Part shown: positions 1 through 32,144 of the stretch, one piece after another
Layout: each line of letters starts with the position of its first letter
Numbering within the stretch: position 1 is the first letter of the stretch
Virus record (IMG/VR): IMGVR_UViG_3300046543_000143
Coordinates: 1 to 38,248 of that record
DNA length: 38,248 nucleotides
Strand: one strand, 5' to 3'
From: a virus
Notes under the pieces: model-generated
Told to the model about the DNA's origin: nothing
The model's database searches: none
The model's input: only the letters and a program-made list of their open reading frames with translations
Translations under genes and position numbers: made by a program

Positions 1-1612
1 GCAGCACGATGGTCGATGCCTTGCGGTAGACGTCCTGCGGGAGTTCCGAGGGCAGCAGGTTCACGTAGGAACCGCCTTCCGGGTCACGGAGGAGCGCCGA
101 GAAGTGCTGCAGGCCCGAGCACGAACCATCGACGGCCACAGGGATGCGGCAGACGTAGCCCGTGGGGTCCTGGAAATACGACTCCAGGGCGAGACACCCC
201 GCCAGGAAGCAGAAGGGCGAGTCAGCGCCTCTCCAGAGTTCCAGGGACGCGATGGGATCCTCAGCGACTGCGCGGACGAGCCACAGGTTCGCATCGGTCC
301 ACTTAACGCGCTCGTCGTGGGGCATCTTGTCGACTGCCACACCCTCGACCTTGAATGCGCCCGTGGTCGCGATGTGCCACTTGAGCCAGTAGACGCCGCC
401 CTCGTTCAACACTTCGCCGTTGGCCAGTTCATACAGGCCCTTGCAGAAGTCCGAGCGCTGGTGATTGAAGCCCGGCTTCGCGTAGACGCGGCCCCGCCAG
501 TCCAGAACGTGCGGCTGAAAGAAGGGAGCGCCCACGTAGTTCTTCGCTTCCGCGATGGCCGACCGGATCGAGTTGCGCGTCGCACGCGTCGCATCGTTGT
601 CCTTGCGCTTCTTCGCTGCTTCCTTCGGATCCAGGCCCTTCGGGACAACCACAGGGTTCCCTGGGACCTTGCCCACCGCGAGGCCGTTGGAGAAGCAGTG
701 GTCAAGCACCGCAAGCACCTTGGCGTTAATGGTCAGCGGGACGTCCTGCACCGAGTTCAGGGCACGAACGAACGGGGCATTGGCCTTGATGGCGGCGTCG
801 ACCAGCTTGCGCTGGCGTCCGTTGGGGGTGACCATCAGCTTGACCGTCTTGGCCACTCGCGGGTCGTTATAGGCTCCCGTGTTGAAGTCCGTCCACGGGT
901 TCGGGCGGGTGACCATCGGCTGATAGATCGGGTGCATCCACTGCTGGATCTCGGTCATATCGTCCATCTCCGTCTGGGCCTCCTCGGTGAACTTGAGGAC
1001 CGCCGCACCGACCACACTGTTGCCGTCCGTTGTGTCGAACATGTCGAGCACCGGCAGCACGATGTTGATCAGGCCCATGCCGAGCTTGATCTGGTCTTCG
1101 GGGTTCTCGGAGAATCCCCAAGCCTCAAGCAGTTCTTCGCCCTTCTTCTGGCCGGCACGGGCCGAGGTTACCTTGCGGTTGACCAGCTTCTTCAGGCCCT
1201 TGTCGTTTGTCACCTTGGCTTGCTCGGCCAGGGCTGCAACGGCCATCTCGGTCTCGCTGTGGAAACCGATGAGTTGCGCCGTGAACGTGATCGACTGGTC
1301 CGTGGAGGCGCTGTTGAACAGGCTCCGGAGCACAATGGCCGTGAGCATGTCAGTGTCGATGGACTTCAGCGCCTTAGCGTGCGGGGCAGGGCGACCACGG
1401 CCCTTGGCAGCTTCCGTGAGCGCCGCCGCTCCGATGGCTACCGCTGCCTTCTGGAATGCCTGGGCGAAGAGCTTGCCCTGGGGGCGGCTGATGTCGCCAT
1501 CACGCAGAGCACGCTCGTTCTGGTCGGCGTAGCGTTGGGCACCACGCTCGATCATCGACGCTTCGAGATCAGCTTGGCGGGCGTAGTTCAGGTCGAGATC
1601 ATTCAGGTTCAT
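1..1612 (-). CDS. T7-like single-subunit DNA-directed RNA polymerase (C-terminus beyond window)
   Basis: Transcribes phage genes from phage-specific promoters. Starting at the ATG at 1612, 537 residues are visible and the frame is still open at the window edge. Two hallmark blocks of the T7 RNA polymerase family are present. DWRGRVYA lies at about residues 371-378. The palm motif DGSCSGLQHFSALLRD begins at about D495, the equivalent of the first catalytic aspartate (T7 D537). T7 RNAP has 883 residues, so roughly the last third, including the second catalytic aspartate, should lie left of the window. The gene is preceded by a host-type promoter at 1648-1676, as expected for a polymerase that must first be made by the host enzyme. 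Family assignment is secure; promoter specificity is not known. Confidence 0.97.
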   Translation of the reverse strand, partial: MNLNDLDLNYARQADLEASMIERGAQRYADQNERALRDGDISRPQGKLFAQAFQKAAVAIGAAALTEAAKGRGRPAPHAKALKSIDTDMLTAIVLRSLFNSASTDQSITFTAQLIGFHSETEMAVAALAEQAKVTNDKGLKKLVNRKVTSARAGQKKGEELLEAWGFSENPEDQIKLGMGLINIVLPVLDMFDTTDGNSVVGAAVLKFTEEAQTEMDDMTEIQQWMHPIYQPMVTRPNPWTDFNTGAYNDPRVAKTVKLMVTPNGRQRKLVDAAIKANAPFVRALNSVQDVPLTINAKVLAVLDHCFSNGLAVGKVPGNPVVVPKGLDPKEAAKKRKDNDATRATRNSIRSAIAEAKNYVGAPFFQPHVLDWRGRVYAKPGFNHQRSDFCKGLYELANGEVLNEGGVYWLKWHIATTGAFKVEGVAVDKMPHDERVKWTDANLWLVRAVAEDPIASLELWRGADSPFCFLAGCLALESYFQDPTGYVCRIPVAVDGSCSGLQHFSALLRDPEGGSYVNLLPSELPQDVYRKASTIVL

Positions 1613-1683: not shown

Positions 1684-1691
1684 TTGTACAG
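1684..1691. promoter_or_regulatory. TTGTACA-type operator candidate upstream of the RNAP promoter
   Basis: TTGTACAG matches 7 of 8 bases of the palindrome TTGTACAA found at 5169, 5661, 6167 and 32127. It lies 7 bases upstream of the -35 of the RNAP promoter. Its regulatory role is inferred from recurrence at promoters. Confidence 0.4.
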
Positions 1692-5168: not shown

Positions 5169-5176
5169 TTGTACAA
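5169..5176. promoter_or_regulatory. TTGTACAA operator candidate
   Basis: Perfect 8-base palindrome in the gap between the genes at 5178 and 5036. On the minus strand it could also supply a poor -35 (TTGTAC) with TACAGG 17 bases on, so an internal promoter for the distal early genes is possible but weak. Confidence 0.4.
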
Positions 5177-5639: not shown

Positions 5640-5668
5640 ACTATAGCAAAGCGTTTTGAGTTGTACAA
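5640..5668 (-). promoter_or_regulatory. host-type promoter of the early operon
   Basis: On the minus strand the -10 TATAGT (5640-5645) matches five of six consensus bases, and TTGTAC (5663-5668) stands 17 bases upstream as the -35. The -35 lies inside the TTGTACAA palindrome, so a protein bound there would block RNA polymerase. Confidence 0.6.
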
Positions 5669-5678
5669 GTAGGTACAG
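5661..5678. promoter_or_regulatory. operator candidate TTGTACAAGTAGGTACAG
   Basis: These 18 bases match 32117-32134 (opposite strand) at 17 of 18 positions. TGTAC occurs within TTGTACAA and GTAC again 11 bases later. The site covers the -35 of the early promoter. A repressor site is inferred. Confidence 0.5.
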
Positions 5679-6163
5679 CAAAAAGATTCGTCTGCCTGTC
5701 GAAAACACGTCACGGTCATTCCCAGGCAACCATTTTTAACCCTCGGTGCCCCCTGTATCCCCCACGCCACGCACGCACCACTAGAGGATCACCACAGGCA
5801 CCAATACCCCTTGGGATCACCACAGGTCCCAGGCACGCACCACAGACCCCTAAACGCCTGCAGATCACGCCTGATTCCATGTCCATCAGATAGCCCATCT
5901 GATCGAATCCGTTAAGAATCAATGGGTTGCAAGGGCAAGGCACACGGCGCGGATCGAATCCCCCGCCAGACAGTACCCCCCATGCGCCTTTTGGAGGCCT
6001 TTCCAAAACTCCGGTAAAGCCTCAGCCGTTGTTGTTGTTGTTGAGGATTGCTGAGTGGTGGCTTCCGCCCAAAACACAGACCCCCCTGGGGTCCCCGCCG
6101 GGTCCTCAAGTGACCCCGTCCCCAATTTCCCCAAGTACCCCCGGTACCCCCGGGGTGCCCCCA
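5679..6163. other. gene-free region before the late genes
   Basis: No supported gene. The stretch is C-rich with repeated CACCACAGG and CGCACCAC words (5775-5850). GATCGAATCC occurs twice (about 5901 and 5953). There is a (GTT)5 run at 6028-6043 inside a possible stem CTCAGC/GCTGAG (6021-6055), and a string of CCCC-GGTACC-like words at 6130-6160. Plus-strand frames through it are proline-rich and lack ribosome sites. It is presumably untranslated leader of the late transcript. Confidence 0.4.
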
Positions 6164-6177
6164 AAGTTGTACAACTT
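6164..6177. promoter_or_regulatory. 14-bp perfect palindrome AAGTTGTACAACTT
   Basis: Contains the TTGTACAA core in its longest symmetric form and ends six bases before the ATG of the first late gene (6184). It could be an operator, or act on the mRNA by hiding the start. Confidence 0.5.
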
Positions 6178-6183
6178 AGCCCC

Positions 6184-6528
6184 ATGAAGAACGTCCTCAA
6201 GTACCAGGCCCACCCCTGGGGCCGCGAGGTGTGGTTCACACAGGACGACACGGCCCTCAAGGCCCTTGGGAAGAAGTTCGATCTCAACCTCGACCTCGAG
6301 GGGTCCCTCGGCCTCTGCTGGGGTACCTCGACCCGGGTGATCGTCATCTGGGTGCGGCCTGGGTCCGATGTGTCCGTGCTTGTCCATGAGTGCTGCCACG
6401 CGGCCCTGGACATCCTGGACTACGCAGGCATGAACCCGGCCCACGCCAATGGCGAACCCATGTGCTACACGCTCCAGCGAATGATTGAACAGTTCGCTCC
6501 CCACCTCATCCCCCCACAGAACTCCTAA
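6184..6528 (+). CDS. putative zinc metallopeptidase-like phage protein (114 aa)
   Basis: Contains an HExxH zinc-binding motif (HECCH, residues 68-72) and a downstream acidic residue (E91 in GEPMCYTLQRM) in the position of the third ligand, as in small gluzincin/SprT-like phage proteins. The flanking helices fit this. The usual role would be peptide hydrolysis, but such small phage members are biochemically uncharacterised. The start at 6184 is chosen because upstream in-frame residues are proline-rich leader; its ribosome site is poor. First gene of the late strand. Confidence 0.65.
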   Translation: MKNVLKYQAHPWGREVWFTQDDTALKALGKKFDLNLDLEGSLGLCWGTSTRVIVIWVRPGSDVSVLVHECCHAALDILDYAGMNPAHANGEPMCYTLQRMIEQFAPHLIPPQNS

Positions 6529-28515: not shown

Positions 28516-29106
28516 CTATAAGAGCCGAGGCTGTTCGCCGTCGCTCGGTGGCGGCTGCTGGCTGTCCAAGAATCCCCGCTTCGGCACGTCGCTCGACGGG
28601 ATCTCGGCACGCAGCGTTCCGGCCTCCGCGTCCCAGGAGAATCCCGAGCCGGGGATGATCTCGCATTCGACGAAGGCCTTCGGGTCCGTCTTGCCGTTCA
28701 CCGCCTTCTCGATGGCCTGGATCTGCTCGGGCAGCTTGTCGGGCACGTAGTCGATGACGATGGTGCAGAGCACGCGAGACCCCAGACGGACGTCCATGCG
28801 CTCTCGTGCCACGTAGGCGTTCCCACGGCCCTTCTCGCCCCTGGTGACCCGCAGCAGCTTCTTGGCCTCGAGGACCTCGATGTACTTGCTGATGGCCCCT
28901 AGGGACGCCCCGGTCATCTCAGCGAGCCGACGGACGCCAGGCCAGCAGATGCCAGTCTCTCGGTCTGCGTGGGTCTTGATGGCGTTCCAGAGCATGAAGG
29001 CGTTGCCCCCGATCTCCGCAGCCAGCCCGGATTCGAACAGGTCCTGCTGCATCGTGTTGTACGAGGCGTCCAGCAGCTTCGGCTTCTTCGGTTCCTTGGC
29101 CATCAC
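28516..29106 (-). CDS. winged-helix plasmid replication-initiator-like protein (196 aa)
   Basis: Residues about 30-100 form a winged helix-turn-helix (NAFMLWNAIKTHADRETGIC, VRRLAEMTGASLGAISKYIE, VLEAKKLLRVTRG). This type is seen in plasmid replication or copy-control proteins of Gram-negative bacteria, often beside ParA. The C-terminal 50 residues are disordered and proline-rich. It is the last gene of a four-gene operon (parA, RHH, small gene, rep) and abuts an iteron/DnaA-box origin. It is shorter than most two-domain Rep proteins. A pure transcription regulator is the alternative. Confidence 0.65.
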   Translation of the reverse strand: MMAKEPKKPKLLDASYNTMQQDLFESGLAAEIGGNAFMLWNAIKTHADRETGICWPGVRRLAEMTGASLGAISKYIEVLEAKKLLRVTRGEKGRGNAYVARERMDVRLGSRVLCTIVIDYVPDKLPEQIQAIEKAVNGKTDPKAFVECEIIPGSGFSWDAEAGTLRAEIPSSDVPKRGFLDSQQPPPSDGEQPRLL

Positions 29107-29297
29107 CAGGCCCCCATGAGGCCACCAAGGACCTCCAGCTCCTCTCCGATCCAGTCCCGGTAGGAAGCGGCGTATCCCAGGGCCTTCTTCCGGTGGAACA
29201 GGCGGATCTCCTCGAGCAGGTTCTCCCGGGTCATCTCGATCAACTCCCGGTCGGCCAGCAGCCCTTCGTGCTCCCAGTGCGCAGCGTGTTCCATCAC
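29103..29297 (-). CDS. small hypothetical protein of the partition operon (64 aa)
   Basis: A 64-residue, strongly charged helical protein (RELIEMTRENLLEEIRLFHR). Its start overlaps the stop of the RHH gene and its stop overlaps the start of the rep-like gene. It has a His-rich N-terminus (MMEHAAHWEHEG). Unknown; possibly a copy-number or partition accessory factor. Confidence 0.7.
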   Translation of the reverse strand: MMEHAAHWEHEGLLADRELIEMTRENLLEEIRLFHRKKALGYAASYRDWIGEELEVLGGLMGAW

Positions 29298-29668
29298 ACC
29301 CTCCCCTTGTTGATCCGTGCGACCCGGCGGTCCACCTCAGGCCCCAGGCAGTCGACGATGATCTCGGTCATGGTCACGCCCTGCAGCCCCGCGAGGATCT
29401 TGAGCCGCCGATGGAGCTCCGTGGGGATCCTCAGATTCATCGGTTTCGTGTCGGCCTTTTTCGGGACGATCTCGACGATGGTGTCAAAGTAGTTCTGCAG
29501 TACCCCGTGCGGCTTGTCTACAGCCCCGCCAGCGGCCTCGTGAGGCTCCGGAGGCACTTGGGTAGCGGGTACGCCCTTCGTGACCTCCTGGCGCATCCTG
29601 GTGACCGCGGAATCGTCTGCGCTCCGTTCAGGCAGCGCGGGGCCTTTGATGTTGGGCCTTTCAGACAT
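29294..29668 (-). CDS. ribbon-helix-helix centromere-binding-like protein, ParB/ParG role (124 aa)
   Basis: A disordered N-terminal 70 residues precedes a ribbon-helix-helix domain (about 76-118: KPMNLRIPTELHRRLKILAG, VTMTEIIVDCLGPEV). Such proteins, encoded just after a short ParA as here, bind the centromere and repress the operon (ParG/Omega type) in type Ib partition systems. The start lies inside parA, with GAGGAG before it. The likely operator is the TGTAAAGA repeat upstream of parA. Confidence 0.75.
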   Translation of the reverse strand: MSERPNIKGPALPERSADDSAVTRMRQEVTKGVPATQVPPEPHEAAGGAVDKPHGVLQNYFDTIVEIVPKKADTKPMNLRIPTELHRRLKILAGLQGVTMTEIIVDCLGPEVDRRVARINKGRV

Positions 29669-30314
29669 TGAAAATCTCCTCGTAGAGGTTCGTCAGTTCC
29701 TCGGTGGCCCGCGGGTCCTTGCGCTTCAACTCCGTTACCGCCCTGCCCGTCTTCGACGAGTCCCGGAATGCCTGGCGGTTGAAGATTGTCTTCGAGACAG
29801 GCTTGAAGTAGTCCTTGAGGCCCTCGAGCATCTCCCTGGAGTCTTGGAGGTCCCTCTTCGCATTAGGAGGGACGCTGTTCAGGACCACAAGGATCCGCGT
29901 CTCCGGTCGCTCGGTCTTCAGTCGGTTGGCAATCAGGAGCATCGGCTCTAGGCCTGAGGTGTCGAACTGACCGATGCCCACGGGGATGACGATGACGTCC
30001 GCAGCCAGGCAAGCGTCCACCATCTCCACTCCCCTCCCTGCGGGCACGTCCACGATCACGACTTCGTATGCCTCTCGATGTGCGACCAGGTCGGCGTACA
30101 CCTTACCTTGGCCCATGGCTAGACTTACGTGCGGGAGGCTCTCCTCACTGCGCCGTGTGGTCCCCCACGCGTAGCTGTAGCGCCCCTTTTGGTTGTCGAT
30201 GTCGGTATCTACCAGCAGCACGCGATGTCCCTTCGAAGCGATCAGCCCCGCTAGGTTCGTCGACAGCGTGCTTTTTCCAACTCCCCCTTTCTCCGTTGCA
30301 ACCGCGATCAGCAT
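29661..30314 (-). CDS. parA: ParA-family partition ATPase (217 aa)
   Basis: A deviant Walker A motif EKGGVGKST (8-16) with the signature lysine, a switch DTDIDNQ (36-42) and Walker B-like VVIVDVPAG (85-93) identify a ParA/MinD ATPase. It is short and lacks an N-terminal helix-turn-helix, as in type Ib plasmid partition, where a separate small DNA-binding protein serves as partner. The start at 30314 is preceded by a perfect AAGGAGG; the longer frame is rejected. It would segregate the extrachromosomal prophage on the nucleoid. First gene of the par-rep operon. Confidence 0.92.
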   Translation of the reverse strand: MLIAVATEKGGVGKSTLSTNLAGLIASKGHRVLLVDTDIDNQKGRYSYAWGTTRRSEESLPHVSLAMGQGKVYADLVAHREAYEVVIVDVPAGRGVEMVDACLAADVIVIPVGIGQFDTSGLEPMLLIANRLKTERPETRILVVLNSVPPNAKRDLQDSREMLEGLKDYFKPVSKTIFNRQAFRDSSKTGRAVTELKRKDPRATEELTNLYEEIFNV

Positions 30315-30340
30315 GTGTCCTCCTTCCTTGGTGTCCAAAA

Positions 30341-30369
30341 ATCTTAGGTGATCACGTTCCGTGTGTAAA
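30341..30369 (-). promoter_or_regulatory. promoter of the par-rep operon
   Basis: Minus-strand -35 TTTACA (30364-30369, five of six bases) and -10 TAAGAT (30341-30346) with a 17-base spacer. The -35 lies inside the operator repeats, so the promoter is probably autoregulated. Confidence 0.7.
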
Positions 30370-30393
30370 GACATGTTTCTTTACATCTTTACA
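30364..30393. promoter_or_regulatory. TGTAAAGA operator/centromere candidate (three repeats)
   Basis: TGTAAAGA at 30364-30371 and its complement TCTTTACA at 30378-30385 and 30386-30393. The last two are directly adjacent, the first two are inverted with a 6-base gap. Clustered 8-base repeats are how ribbon-helix-helix partition proteins bind their operator and centromere. Confidence 0.65.
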
Positions 30394-30403
30394 GACAGGT
30401 AGG

Positions 30404-30426
30404 AAAAAGCCCCGACAGAGCGGGGC
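30404..30426 (-). terminator. intrinsic terminator after the second RHH gene
   Basis: Minus strand: stem GCCCCG/CGGGGC with a 6-base loop, followed by TTTTT, six bases after the stop at 30432. It isolates the par-rep promoter from upstream transcription. Confidence 0.85.
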
Positions 30427-30431
30427 ACTGA

Positions 30432-30788
30432 TCACTTCACCTTGGTGAACCTATCGATCACCGCATCGGCCATCTCGTTTGCCGCACGGTCCAGAAACAC
30501 CTGCATCGACTTCATCCCACCCACGTTCTCAACGATCCACTTGACCTTGAGGTACAACTCCGGTTCCATCTTGAAGTTGTACCCCATGCGCGGCTGCGCT
30601 TGGATTATGTCTGGGTTTTCCCAAGGGAAGCGGGCCGACTTGGTCGCCTCCTCACGGGCTAACTCCTGCAATCGGGCGATCTCCGCTTGTGCCGCCCTCA
30701 ACTGCTCCTCAACACTCATCGCCGCTTTGTCTGCTGCCTTTGAATCTGCCTTAGCAGGAGCTACACTCTTGCCCGATACTGCGTTCAT
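30432..30788 (-). CDS. coiled-coil/ribbon-helix-helix-like DNA-binding protein (118 aa)
   Basis: Read from ATG at 30788 (MNAVSGKSVAPAK); a longer frame overlaps the upstream gene further. An N-terminal basic linker and coiled coil (about 25-50) precede a region that looks like an RHH unit: MGYNFKMEPELYLKVKWIVE, a turn and KSMQVFLDRAANEMADAVID. The gap before it has TGTACAGTACAAG, similar to the TTGTACAA operator. It is therefore the best candidate in the window for the lysogeny repressor, though this is unproven. Confidence 0.6.
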   Translation of the reverse strand: MNAVSGKSVAPAKADSKAADKAAMSVEEQLRAAQAEIARLQELAREEATKSARFPWENPDIIQAQPRMGYNFKMEPELYLKVKWIVENVGGMKSMQVFLDRAANEMADAVIDRFTKVK

Positions 30789-31050
30789 TTGGCTGGTCCT
30801 CGTTTGTGTTTTCAGTGCTTGTACTGTACAGGTTCGTGCAGTCCCTAGCAACCTTTACCACTTCTGTTAGTGTGGTACATCTAACACAGAGGCCAAACTC
30901 TTCCCAAGCGTGGTCCCAGGTGCTATAGGAGCACTCGAGATTCCCGTCGATCAGCAGGTGGTGCTGGTGCGACTCGGGGTCTTCCTCGGTGCCTTCGGAG
31001 ACCAAGGACACCGTAGTATTATCAGACAAATAGACAGAGATCAGTTGCAT
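30751..31050 (-). CDS. hypothetical protein (99 aa)
   Basis: Read from the ATG at 31050 (MQLISVYLSDNTTVSLV); the in-frame start further up (31164) has leader-like sequence. A beta-rich N-terminus, histidines in the middle (HQHHLLIDG) and cysteines later (LCVRC, ARDC, QECSSC). It overlaps the RHH-like gene by 38 bases in another frame. No family was recognised. Confidence 0.55.
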   Translation of the reverse strand: MQLISVYLSDNTTVSLVSEGTEEDPESHQHHLLIDGNLECSYSTWDHAWEEFGLCVRCTTLTEVVKVARDCTNLYSTSTENTNEDQPNERSIGQECSSC

Positions 31051-31190: not shown

Positions 31191-32000
31191 TTACCGCACA
31201 GCCGCCAGCAGGTCCTCGTCCGAGATGTGGGCGTAGCGCATCGTCGTCTGTATCTTACGGTGTCCGAGGAGCTTCTGGACTACCGCGATGTTCCCAGTCC
31301 TCGACAGCGTCCGGGTTGCGGCGGTATGTCGCAGGGCGTGAAGGACGAAGTCGTCGTCCCCCTCGAGGCCCATAGCCACCTTCAGGCGCAGCCATACAGC
31401 CCGCAGTTTCCCCTCGTCCAGGGCGAAGGGCAGACCCTGGGCAATCGCATCCTGAGCGCGGACGCTGAGGGGCACCGAGCGGGGCTTCTTCGTCTTGTTG
31501 ACCCACAGCCGAACCCACGGTCCATCCACGTTCTTCTCCTCGAGGTTCAGGATCTCCGAGCGGCGCATTCCGGTGTCGATGGAGACCGTAAGGAACCTAG
31601 CGACCTCGGCCTCTCCCCAGGTGTCCAAGAGGGCGAACAGCTGAATTTCTTCGACTTCTGTCAACCAGCGGGTGCGTCCCTCCGTTTCTTCCTTCCATTC
31701 GAACTTCGGCATCTTGGCGATCCACTCGCGCTCGAAGCCGTACTTGAGGACCGTGTGGATGTTGGCCAGCTTGCGGTTGACCGTGGCGTCCGCGATGGTC
31801 CCTTGGACCTCCAGGATGAAGTCGTCGATGGTCGTAGTCCGGACGTCCTCGAGGGCCAGGTTGCCGACCACCTTGATGAACTGCTCGACGTTGCGGTAAG
31901 CGGTGAGTTCGTAGGCCTTTCCGCGCCACAGGGCCTTAGCGGCGATCCGAAGGAGTTCGTGGAGGTTCGTCGGTGCCTTCTGTTTGGCTGCGGTCTTCAT
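31191..32000 (-). CDS. tyrosine recombinase, integrase/Xer-like (269 aa)
   Basis: Catalyses site-specific DNA strand exchange. The C-terminal catalytic domain has R146 (TGMRRSEIL), a probable beta-lysine near K172, H221 and R224 (HALRHTAATR), H247 (GHRKIQTTMRYAH) and nucleophile Y256. The N-terminal core-binding domain is about 100 residues. It lacks the extra arm-binding domain of lambda-type integrases, so it is closer in size to Xer or plasmid resolvases. With par and rep genes nearby it may resolve multimers, integrate the phage, or both. Confidence 0.92.
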   Translation of the reverse strand: MKTAAKQKAPTNLHELLRIAAKALWRGKAYELTAYRNVEQFIKVVGNLALEDVRTTTIDDFILEVQGTIADATVNRKLANIHTVLKYGFEREWIAKMPKFEWKEETEGRTRWLTEVEEIQLFALLDTWGEAEVARFLTVSIDTGMRRSEILNLEEKNVDGPWVRLWVNKTKKPRSVPLSVRAQDAIAQGLPFALDEGKLRAVWLRLKVAMGLEGDDDFVLHALRHTAATRTLSRTGNIAVVQKLLGHRKIQTTMRYAHISDEDLLAAVR

Positions 32001-32115
32001 CGTTGGTCTCTCGCTTTGGTATGAGGGAAGTATCAGGCCCTACTGGGACACTACACGTCTCAATCGTTTTCCCGATGTGCGTTGTCGAACACAGAGTCGA
32101 CTTGCCATGGATGTG

Positions 32116-32144
32116 ACTGTACCTATTTGTACAACATAATGCAA
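32116..32144 (-). promoter_or_regulatory. host-type promoter of the recombinase with TTGTACAA in its spacer
   Basis: Minus strand: -35 TTGCAT (32139-32144), 17-base spacer, -10 TACAGT (32116-32121). TTGTACAA occupies the spacer (32127-32134) and belongs to the 18-base element shared with 5661-5678. The -35 is the same hexamer as at the RNAP promoter. Confidence 0.55.
32117..32134 (-). promoter_or_regulatory. operator candidate TTGTACAAATAGGTACAG
   Basis: On the minus strand 17 of 18 bases match 5661-5678. It covers the -10 and spacer of the recombinase promoter, where a bound protein would repress. Confidence 0.5.

Follow-up and report, generated by a model that had tools for sequence, protein, structure and literature searches.

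Two promoters of one virus, an early promoter and a recombinase promoter, share a nearly identical stretch of 18 bp on opposite strands. This raises the question of whether a single protein reads both places, and which protein that might be. The DNA analysed here, called the window below, is a 38,248-base IMG/VR virus record. The pair reported in a preliminary description was confirmed: TTGTACAAGTAGGTACAG lies at 5661-5678 on the plus strand and TTGTACAAATAGGTACAG at 32117-32134 on the minus strand, with one mismatch over 18 bp. A scan of the window revealed these copies as the sole places with at most three mismatches to the 18-bp pattern. A flanking G common to both extends the match to 19 bp, and the two GTAC boxes within the 18-mer are 10 bp apart from centre to centre. 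The distance between the copies, given before as more than 11 kb on the circle, is only a lower bound since the window is probably incomplete, because no overlap was found between its ends, the RNA polymerase gene runs off position 2 and relatives of 44-47 kb exist. The following features of the window are needed for the argument.

1 to 1612, minus strand: gene of a single-subunit RNA polymerase, truncated at the window end (PHROG 414, 1.6e-109)
28516 to 29106, minus strand: HTH_36/replication-initiation-like protein (Pfam/PHROG family matches)
29294 to 29668, minus strand: HicB/ribbon-helix-helix-like protein, adjoining parA
29661 to 30374, minus strand: ParA-like partition ATPase (Pfam/PHROG family matches)
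30409 to 30426, minus strand: terminator-like hairpin directly after o30432
30432 to 30788, minus strand: o30432, 118 aa, the proposed repressor, downstream of the recombinase
30751 to 31050, minus strand: o30751, small acidic protein between the recombinase and o30432
31191 to 32000, minus strand: tyrosine recombinase (Pfam Phage_integrase, 2.1e-21; PHROG integrase), downstream of the O_int promoter

The window also encodes a family A DNA polymerase. All matches of the RNA polymerase in the phage collection were below 60% identity, with 29-31% among the matches listed.

The 18-bp repeat alone is weak evidence and proves little, because chance alone would yield, in a random genome as large as this one, about 1.4 pairs of 18-mers that differ at one base or none (mean of 20 random first-order Markov sequences; the window holds 11 such pairs). 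An expectation of 0.01 can be calculated for the 18-bp match, which applies to that chosen pattern and not to any pair. It is the comparison with relatives that supplies the evidence.

The core palindrome and its copies

The two 18-mers are probably members of an operator family with the core TTGTACAA, and we regard them as candidate repressor sites. Four copies of TTGTACAA are present in the window against 0.24 expected. Among 8-bp palindromes it was first or joint first in 9 of 12 records, with 4-9 copies against 0.2-0.4 expected; ranking and expectation are based on base composition only. In the window and in the related record G010 it was tied with TTCATGAA, in G017 it came second, and G013 and G016 had zero copies and one copy, respectively. 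The sites in the window are placed as follows.

1684 to 1691, minus strand: CTGTACAA, directly upstream of a putative RNA polymerase gene promoter (TTGCAT 1676-1671, 17 bp, TATATT 1653-1648, by eye)
5169 to 5176, minus strand: TTGTACAA, at what may be a second leftward early promoter (TTGTAC-17-TACAGG, 5176-5148, by eye)
5661 to 5678, plus strand: O_early, candidate operator at the leftward early promoter (on the minus strand TTGTAC 5668-5663 as a possible -35, 17 bp, -10 TATAGT 5645-5640)
6167 to 6174, plus strand: TTGTACAA, shortly 5' of the first rightward gene (likely ATG at 6184); several relatives have it there too
30819 to 30831, minus strand: CTGTACAGTACAA, candidate operator at the putative o30432 promoter (-35 TTGCTA 30851-30846, 17 bp, -10 TACAGT 30828-30823, by eye)
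32117 to 32134, minus strand: O_int, candidate operator within the putative recombinase promoter (-35 TTGCAT 32144-32139, 17 bp, -10 TACAGT 32121-32116, by eye)

A consensus promoter scan called only one of the proposed promoters, the leftward early one at the 5661 site, in the register TGTACA-16-TATAGT. The recombinase promoter, in which the second box is also the -10 hexamer, is weak and was uncalled by the scan, which called a promoter on the other strand at 32113-32140. Likewise uncalled were the promoters of o30432 and of the RNA polymerase gene and the possible second leftward early promoter at 5169. As far as can be read from sequence, operators lie over an early promoter and over the own promoter of o30432, the latter placed by eye and by conservation, which is the arrangement looked for in an immunity repressor.

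Other repeated elements were seen in the same regions. Three TTAGTCGACACCGGTGT-like palindromic copies lie upstream of the RNA polymerase gene (1712-1731, 1784-1803 and 1897-1916) and perhaps form a second family of regulatory sites. At about 6005-6050, upstream of the rightward genes, we found an element GGTAAAGC...GTTGTTGTTGTTG, which is also present in the distant relatives G025 and G020 (in G020 as GCTAAAGC) and is possibly a phage polymerase promoter or a packaging signal. The early region of G020 contains two TAGGAC-centred palindromes, TAGGACAGACCTA and TAGGACAGTCCTA, maybe the sites of another repressor.

The exact 18-mer was found in 17 other contigs. Eleven of these are relatives that carry it at the early promoter, and their agreement says little beyond kinship because the flanks are near-identical. 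L004, L006, L007, L009, L013 and L018 were set aside as chance occurrences: their flanks differ, and none of the 26 window proteins used has a match in them. At the recombinase promoter the footprint is kept in 14 of 15 aligned upstream regions (six distinct versions with the site; L031 is without it, and L032, whose recombinase match is partial, is outside the alignment). These 14 regions keep GTACAA and the following TACAGT or TACATT, and the bases between them vary. The site shifts relative to the promoter elements, TTGTAC being the -35 in G023 and part of the spacer in the window, and yet it stays in the promoter. A promoter with TTGC, 17-bp spacing and TACAGT is found about 35 bp 5' of the o30432 start codon. 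Here TGTACAGTACAA is present in seven of eight aligned records, four of which are near-identical, and is missing from G020; L078 and L091 also have the site, as TTGTACAGTACAG. The sites 3' of the RNA polymerase gene stand directly before terminator-like sequence and off promoters.

Distant relatives define the unit of the site. At their early promoters G017 and G018 have one box and G019 has two boxes 14 bp apart, and therefore the 10-bp spacing is not general. The half-sites had been described as one helical turn apart, which fits the 10 bp of the window and does not extend to a rule. For the same reason the 18 bp were ruled out as the recognition unit: the core is TTGTACAA, and the second GTAC box is absent or respaced in these relatives. 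Co-regulation of the early and recombinase promoters was supported by the comparison, the site being kept in relatives at both. Both promoters would belong to the regulon, which appears wider than these two.

We considered whether only host sigma-70 elements recur, TTGTAC as -35 and TACAGT as -10, with no operator at all. The motif does coincide with a promoter hexamer in several cases, but TTGTAC is a poor match to the -35 consensus, and the palindrome is longer than a hexamer, stands also in spacers and off promoters, and gives way to a different spelling in one phage group. We judge this explanation very unlikely. The LexA box, CTGT-N8-ACAG, was discarded because its spacing does not fit the sites. 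Literature matches for TTGTACAA concerned unrelated topics, judged by title among the matches listed.

Operator spelling and residue 69 of o30432

A wider pattern search gave 74 matching stretches, leading to 33 loci with o30432 relatives. Residue 69 of o30432 is Gly in 19 of these loci, Ser in nine, Thr in two and Lys in three. The 14 whole records with Gly69 contain 64 copies of TTGTACAA (3.6 expected) and one of TTGTGCAA (9.9 expected), and the five whole records with Ser69 or Thr69 contain one copy of TTGTACAA (1.5 expected) and 25 of TTGTGCAA (3.7 expected); several of these records are near-copies, so that the counts are not independent. The Lys69 records G026, G027 and G041, counted apart, have no TTGTACAA and two TTGTGCAA. 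The class tally leaves aside G001, in which only the o30432 end is present, and G028, G029, G031-G034, G037 and G040 were counted separately from its 19 records. In pattern counts over whole records, all nine Ser69 records showed 3-8 copies of TTGTGCAA and none of TTGTACAA, and G030 and G039, both Gly69, showed three TTGTACAA and no TTGTGCAA.

There are exceptions among the Gly69 records. G028 has no TTGTACAA and one TTGTGCAA, as TTGCACAA at the recombinase promoter, G029 has neither spelling, and G030 carries TTGTACACTGCAC at the o30432 promoter. The o30432-promoter site is absent in G039, as it is in G020. With these few exceptions, residue 69 and the operator spelling change jointly; like the sites, their positions and their conservation, this can be taken directly from the DNA and the translations. 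As a separate observation, the single TTGTGCAA in the 14 Gly69 records is a depletion relative to base composition, which could reflect avoidance or codon usage.

The site 3' of the RNA polymerase gene is homologous in G030, G039 and G038, and reads TTGTACAAC in the first two and CTGCACAAC in G038, which has Ser69. This bears on the reading of the sites as promoters that the phage-encoded RNA polymerase would use; the position of some sites directly 5' and 3' of the polymerase gene would speak for that reading. However, the polymerases of these three phages are 79-81% identical to each other in all pairings, and G038 is nevertheless spelled otherwise. Several sites moreover overlap host-type -35 and -10 elements. 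On the polymerase tree the operator class needs four changes, no fewer than in shuffles, although the places of G025, G035 and G036 on this tree are unsure owing to long branches. The shuffles and the spelling of G038 led us to reject this highly improbable reading.

For the same class label the recombinase tree requires two changes and the o30432 tree one; in the latter the split behind the change is weakly supported (70/95). In these two trees and in the column test described below, G013 and G029, which have no exact copy, were labelled TTGTACAA by kinship and near-matches; G028 and G041 were assigned to no group there. Because the o30432 split is weak, we say only that the spelling change may have been a single event. 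Over residues 25-111 of o30432, columns 69 and 103 alone divide the two groups without exception. The control proteins have such columns too (recombinase 5, polA 21, exo 2), so the column test by itself cannot single out o30432. Residue 72 was rejected as the cause of the spelling change: G030 and G039 have Leu72 like the Ser/Thr group, and yet Gly69 and TTGTACAA.

Strictly, the sequences show the o30751-o30432 cassette tracking the operator, and not o30432 alone, because o30751 diverges in step with o30432. Another phage protein, o30751 or a further early protein, could accordingly read the sites. The forms of o30751 differ between Gly69 and Ser69 records, and our scan of small open reading frames covered part of them. 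However, o30751 is acidic, unlike a typical DNA binder: the 99-aa window protein has a net charge of -14, and the relatives shown range from -4 to -7. For most other small window proteins, one record or more gave no match. We consider a reader other than o30432 unlikely; o30751 is perhaps an antirepressor.

Since the spelling of the sites changes with one residue of o30432, this protein is likely the repressor that keeps the virus dormant. We infer, with some confidence, that o30432 binds the sites, represses the promoters and confers lysogenic immunity. The strict recognition once deduced from the long identity thus has some backing from the conservation of the site at both places and from the spelling change with a phage protein; the repeat itself contributes little.

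The candidate repressor and its exchangeable neighbours

In the set searched for window proteins, o30432 was present in all ten fetched records that hold the recombinase. AlphaFold2 predicts an N-terminal helix, an extended segment at 65-75 (RMGYNFKMEP) and helices at 76-88 and 95-117, with a mean pLDDT of 75; this is a monomer model, in which strand pairing between subunits cannot form. The predicted extended segment followed by two helices resembles a ribbon-helix-helix, the fold of F55 of SSV1. By the general pattern of such proteins, residues 69, 71 and 73 are the predicted DNA-facing ones.

Sequence searches with o30432 gave no significant match in Pfam, NCBIfam, PHROG or the PDB sequences, and tblastn gave none in phage and plasmid collections at E 0.01. 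The sole ribbon-helix-helix name in the family searches was CcdA, for 1 of 17 members at E 0.39. Foldseek gave no match under E 0.001, and structure comparison with VIA gave none among the seven chains given. In an hhalign comparison with the neighbouring ribbon-helix-helix-like family, the strand and the first helix line up, at a probability of 0.2%. That neighbour, encoded at 29294-29668, was rejected as the reader of the sites: it has no match in G002, G006, G007, G010 and G019, which keep the operators.

The hairpin at 30409-30426 probably closes a unit of recombinase, o30751 and o30432. Beyond it, between 28336 and 28520 and beside the HTH_36 gene, lie TGAACACTT repeats and two TTATCCACA boxes, presumably DnaA boxes by their consensus. 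This region is likely a plasmid origin, and its repeats and boxes would suit a phage-plasmid. A replication initiator, partition genes (ParA and the ribbon-helix-helix-like protein) and origin-like repeats are thus all found in the window, as looked for in a phage-plasmid. Rfam reported nothing in the window at gathering scores.

The module 3' of o30432 differs between the records compared (L036, L078, L093, L101 and L056). It consists of parA and a replication gene in the window, G013, G016-G018, G035 and G036, and of a large tyrosine integrase with Pfam DUF6538 and integrase domains in L078/G023 and L101/G038; proteins resembling the large integrase follow o30432 in L093/G030 and G019. Whichever module follows, o30432 is kept, also in an integrated prophage. 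These exchanges bear on the idea that the sites are dispersed, centromere-like partition sites and o30432 the DNA-binding partner of ParA. In G020 o30432 directly follows parA, and in L104 it is divergent from a parA. However, o30432 and the sites persist where the large integrase replaces parA and where the ParA is very different, and many sites stand singly on promoters. A role in partition therefore appears quite unlikely to us.

The prophage is that of G019, a contig of Caballeronia temeraria (NZ_FCOI02000046.1) with a transporter gene on one side and two tRNA-Leu genes on the other. One shared 15-bp sequence, TGGTGCCCAGGAGAG, lies near both ends (L054 2338-2352 and L056 7030-7044), at tRNA-Leu, which suggests that it is the attachment core of a prophage integrated there. 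It is extremely improbable that the tyrosine recombinase uses the TTGTACAA sites themselves for recombination or attachment. One copy does adjoin the recombinase gene, with two imperfect inverted arms, but these arms measure 5 bp, nine of the 12 records hold several copies, as counted above, and the recombinase tree is not matched by the spelling. The attachment core of the integrated relative is a different sequence and lies in tRNA-Leu.

Proposed mechanism and known systems

The best reading, which we think probable from the sequence comparisons, is that o30432 serves the phage as its lysogeny repressor and controls its own gene, the recombinase and entry into the lytic cycle. It would bind TTGTACAA-type boxes as an autoregulated repressor. 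When bound, o30432 would mask the -35 at the leftward early promoters; at the recombinase promoter it would mask the spacer and the -10, and at its own promoter the -10, thereby limiting its own level. It would also sit beside the RNA polymerase gene promoter. In this way it could limit the recombinase and hold the lytic programme off, giving the dormant state. The sites 3' of the polymerase gene might act as roadblocks, which is a guess. A wider proposal is more tentative, and we would not yet bet on it: o30432 may be the founder of a so far undescribed repressor family that maintains lysogeny in phages encoding their own RNA polymerase, one strand residue setting the reading of TTGTACAA or TTGTGCAA and so creating two immunity groups, with the same cassette serving plasmid-type and chromosome-integrating dormancy and some 3'-polymerase sites being roadblocks.

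Phage repressors of strand-helix-helix shape that read short boxes are known, namely Arc and Mnt of P22. The shape predicted for o30432 and its short boxes are alike, although the family and PDB searches brought up no sequence relation. F55 of SSV1, according to the available part of its description (PMC9608457), recognises short sites at several early promoters as well as at its own, and maintains the carrier state. As in our proposal, a small regulator acts through short sites on early promoters and its own. F55 differs in that it belongs to an archaeal virus, has an 11-nt site of unrelated sequence and comprises 55 residues, whereas o30432 has 118 with an added N-terminal helix and a predicted fold; the two are likened by layout only. 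The repressor of Cluster A mycobacteriophages, as presented in the accessible parts of PMC9283540 and PMC6550527, is monomeric, reads an asymmetric site and has stoperators genome-wide. One repressor with many sites over the genome, some of them off promoters (here 3' of the polymerase gene), is a common trait, but the core described here is palindromic, and the systems are set apart by these site descriptions and not by their proteins.

The tests made did not establish membership in the F55, stoperator or LUZ100 systems; the likeness to F55 would be one of layout and that to stoperators partial. In the literature on Autographiviridae phage-plasmids, ribbon-helix-helix immunity repressors and podovirus or ParA phage-plasmids, judged by title and by an excerpt of PMC12860723, the present system was not described, which is no proof of absence.

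The dormancy of phages with their own RNA polymerase is an open point. In the part of the AMP1 paper available (PMC8917201), it is called unclear how a T7-related genome organisation fits prophage maintenance, and the authors of LUZ100 state in the accessible text (PMC10134795) that no stable lysogens were obtained. A candidate protein, its operator and a natural two-state spelling make the point testable. A constant repressor cassette beside exchangeable plasmid and integrase modules would suggest that the dormant state can change without a change of immunity.

The nearest comparison in gene content is with LUZ100 and related temperate T7-like phages. According to the same excerpt (PMC10134795), the integrase of these phages is cotranscribed with a MarR-like regulator encoded immediately upstream of it. 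Among the 27 window proteins scanned in Pfam none matched MarR, and o30432 lies downstream of the recombinase, unlike the upstream regulator of LUZ100. As there, a single-subunit RNA polymerase and a tyrosine integrase occur together, the regulator stands with the integrase, and control of a polymerase promoter is proposed. It may be that o30432 serves the need which the MarR-like regulator meets in LUZ100.
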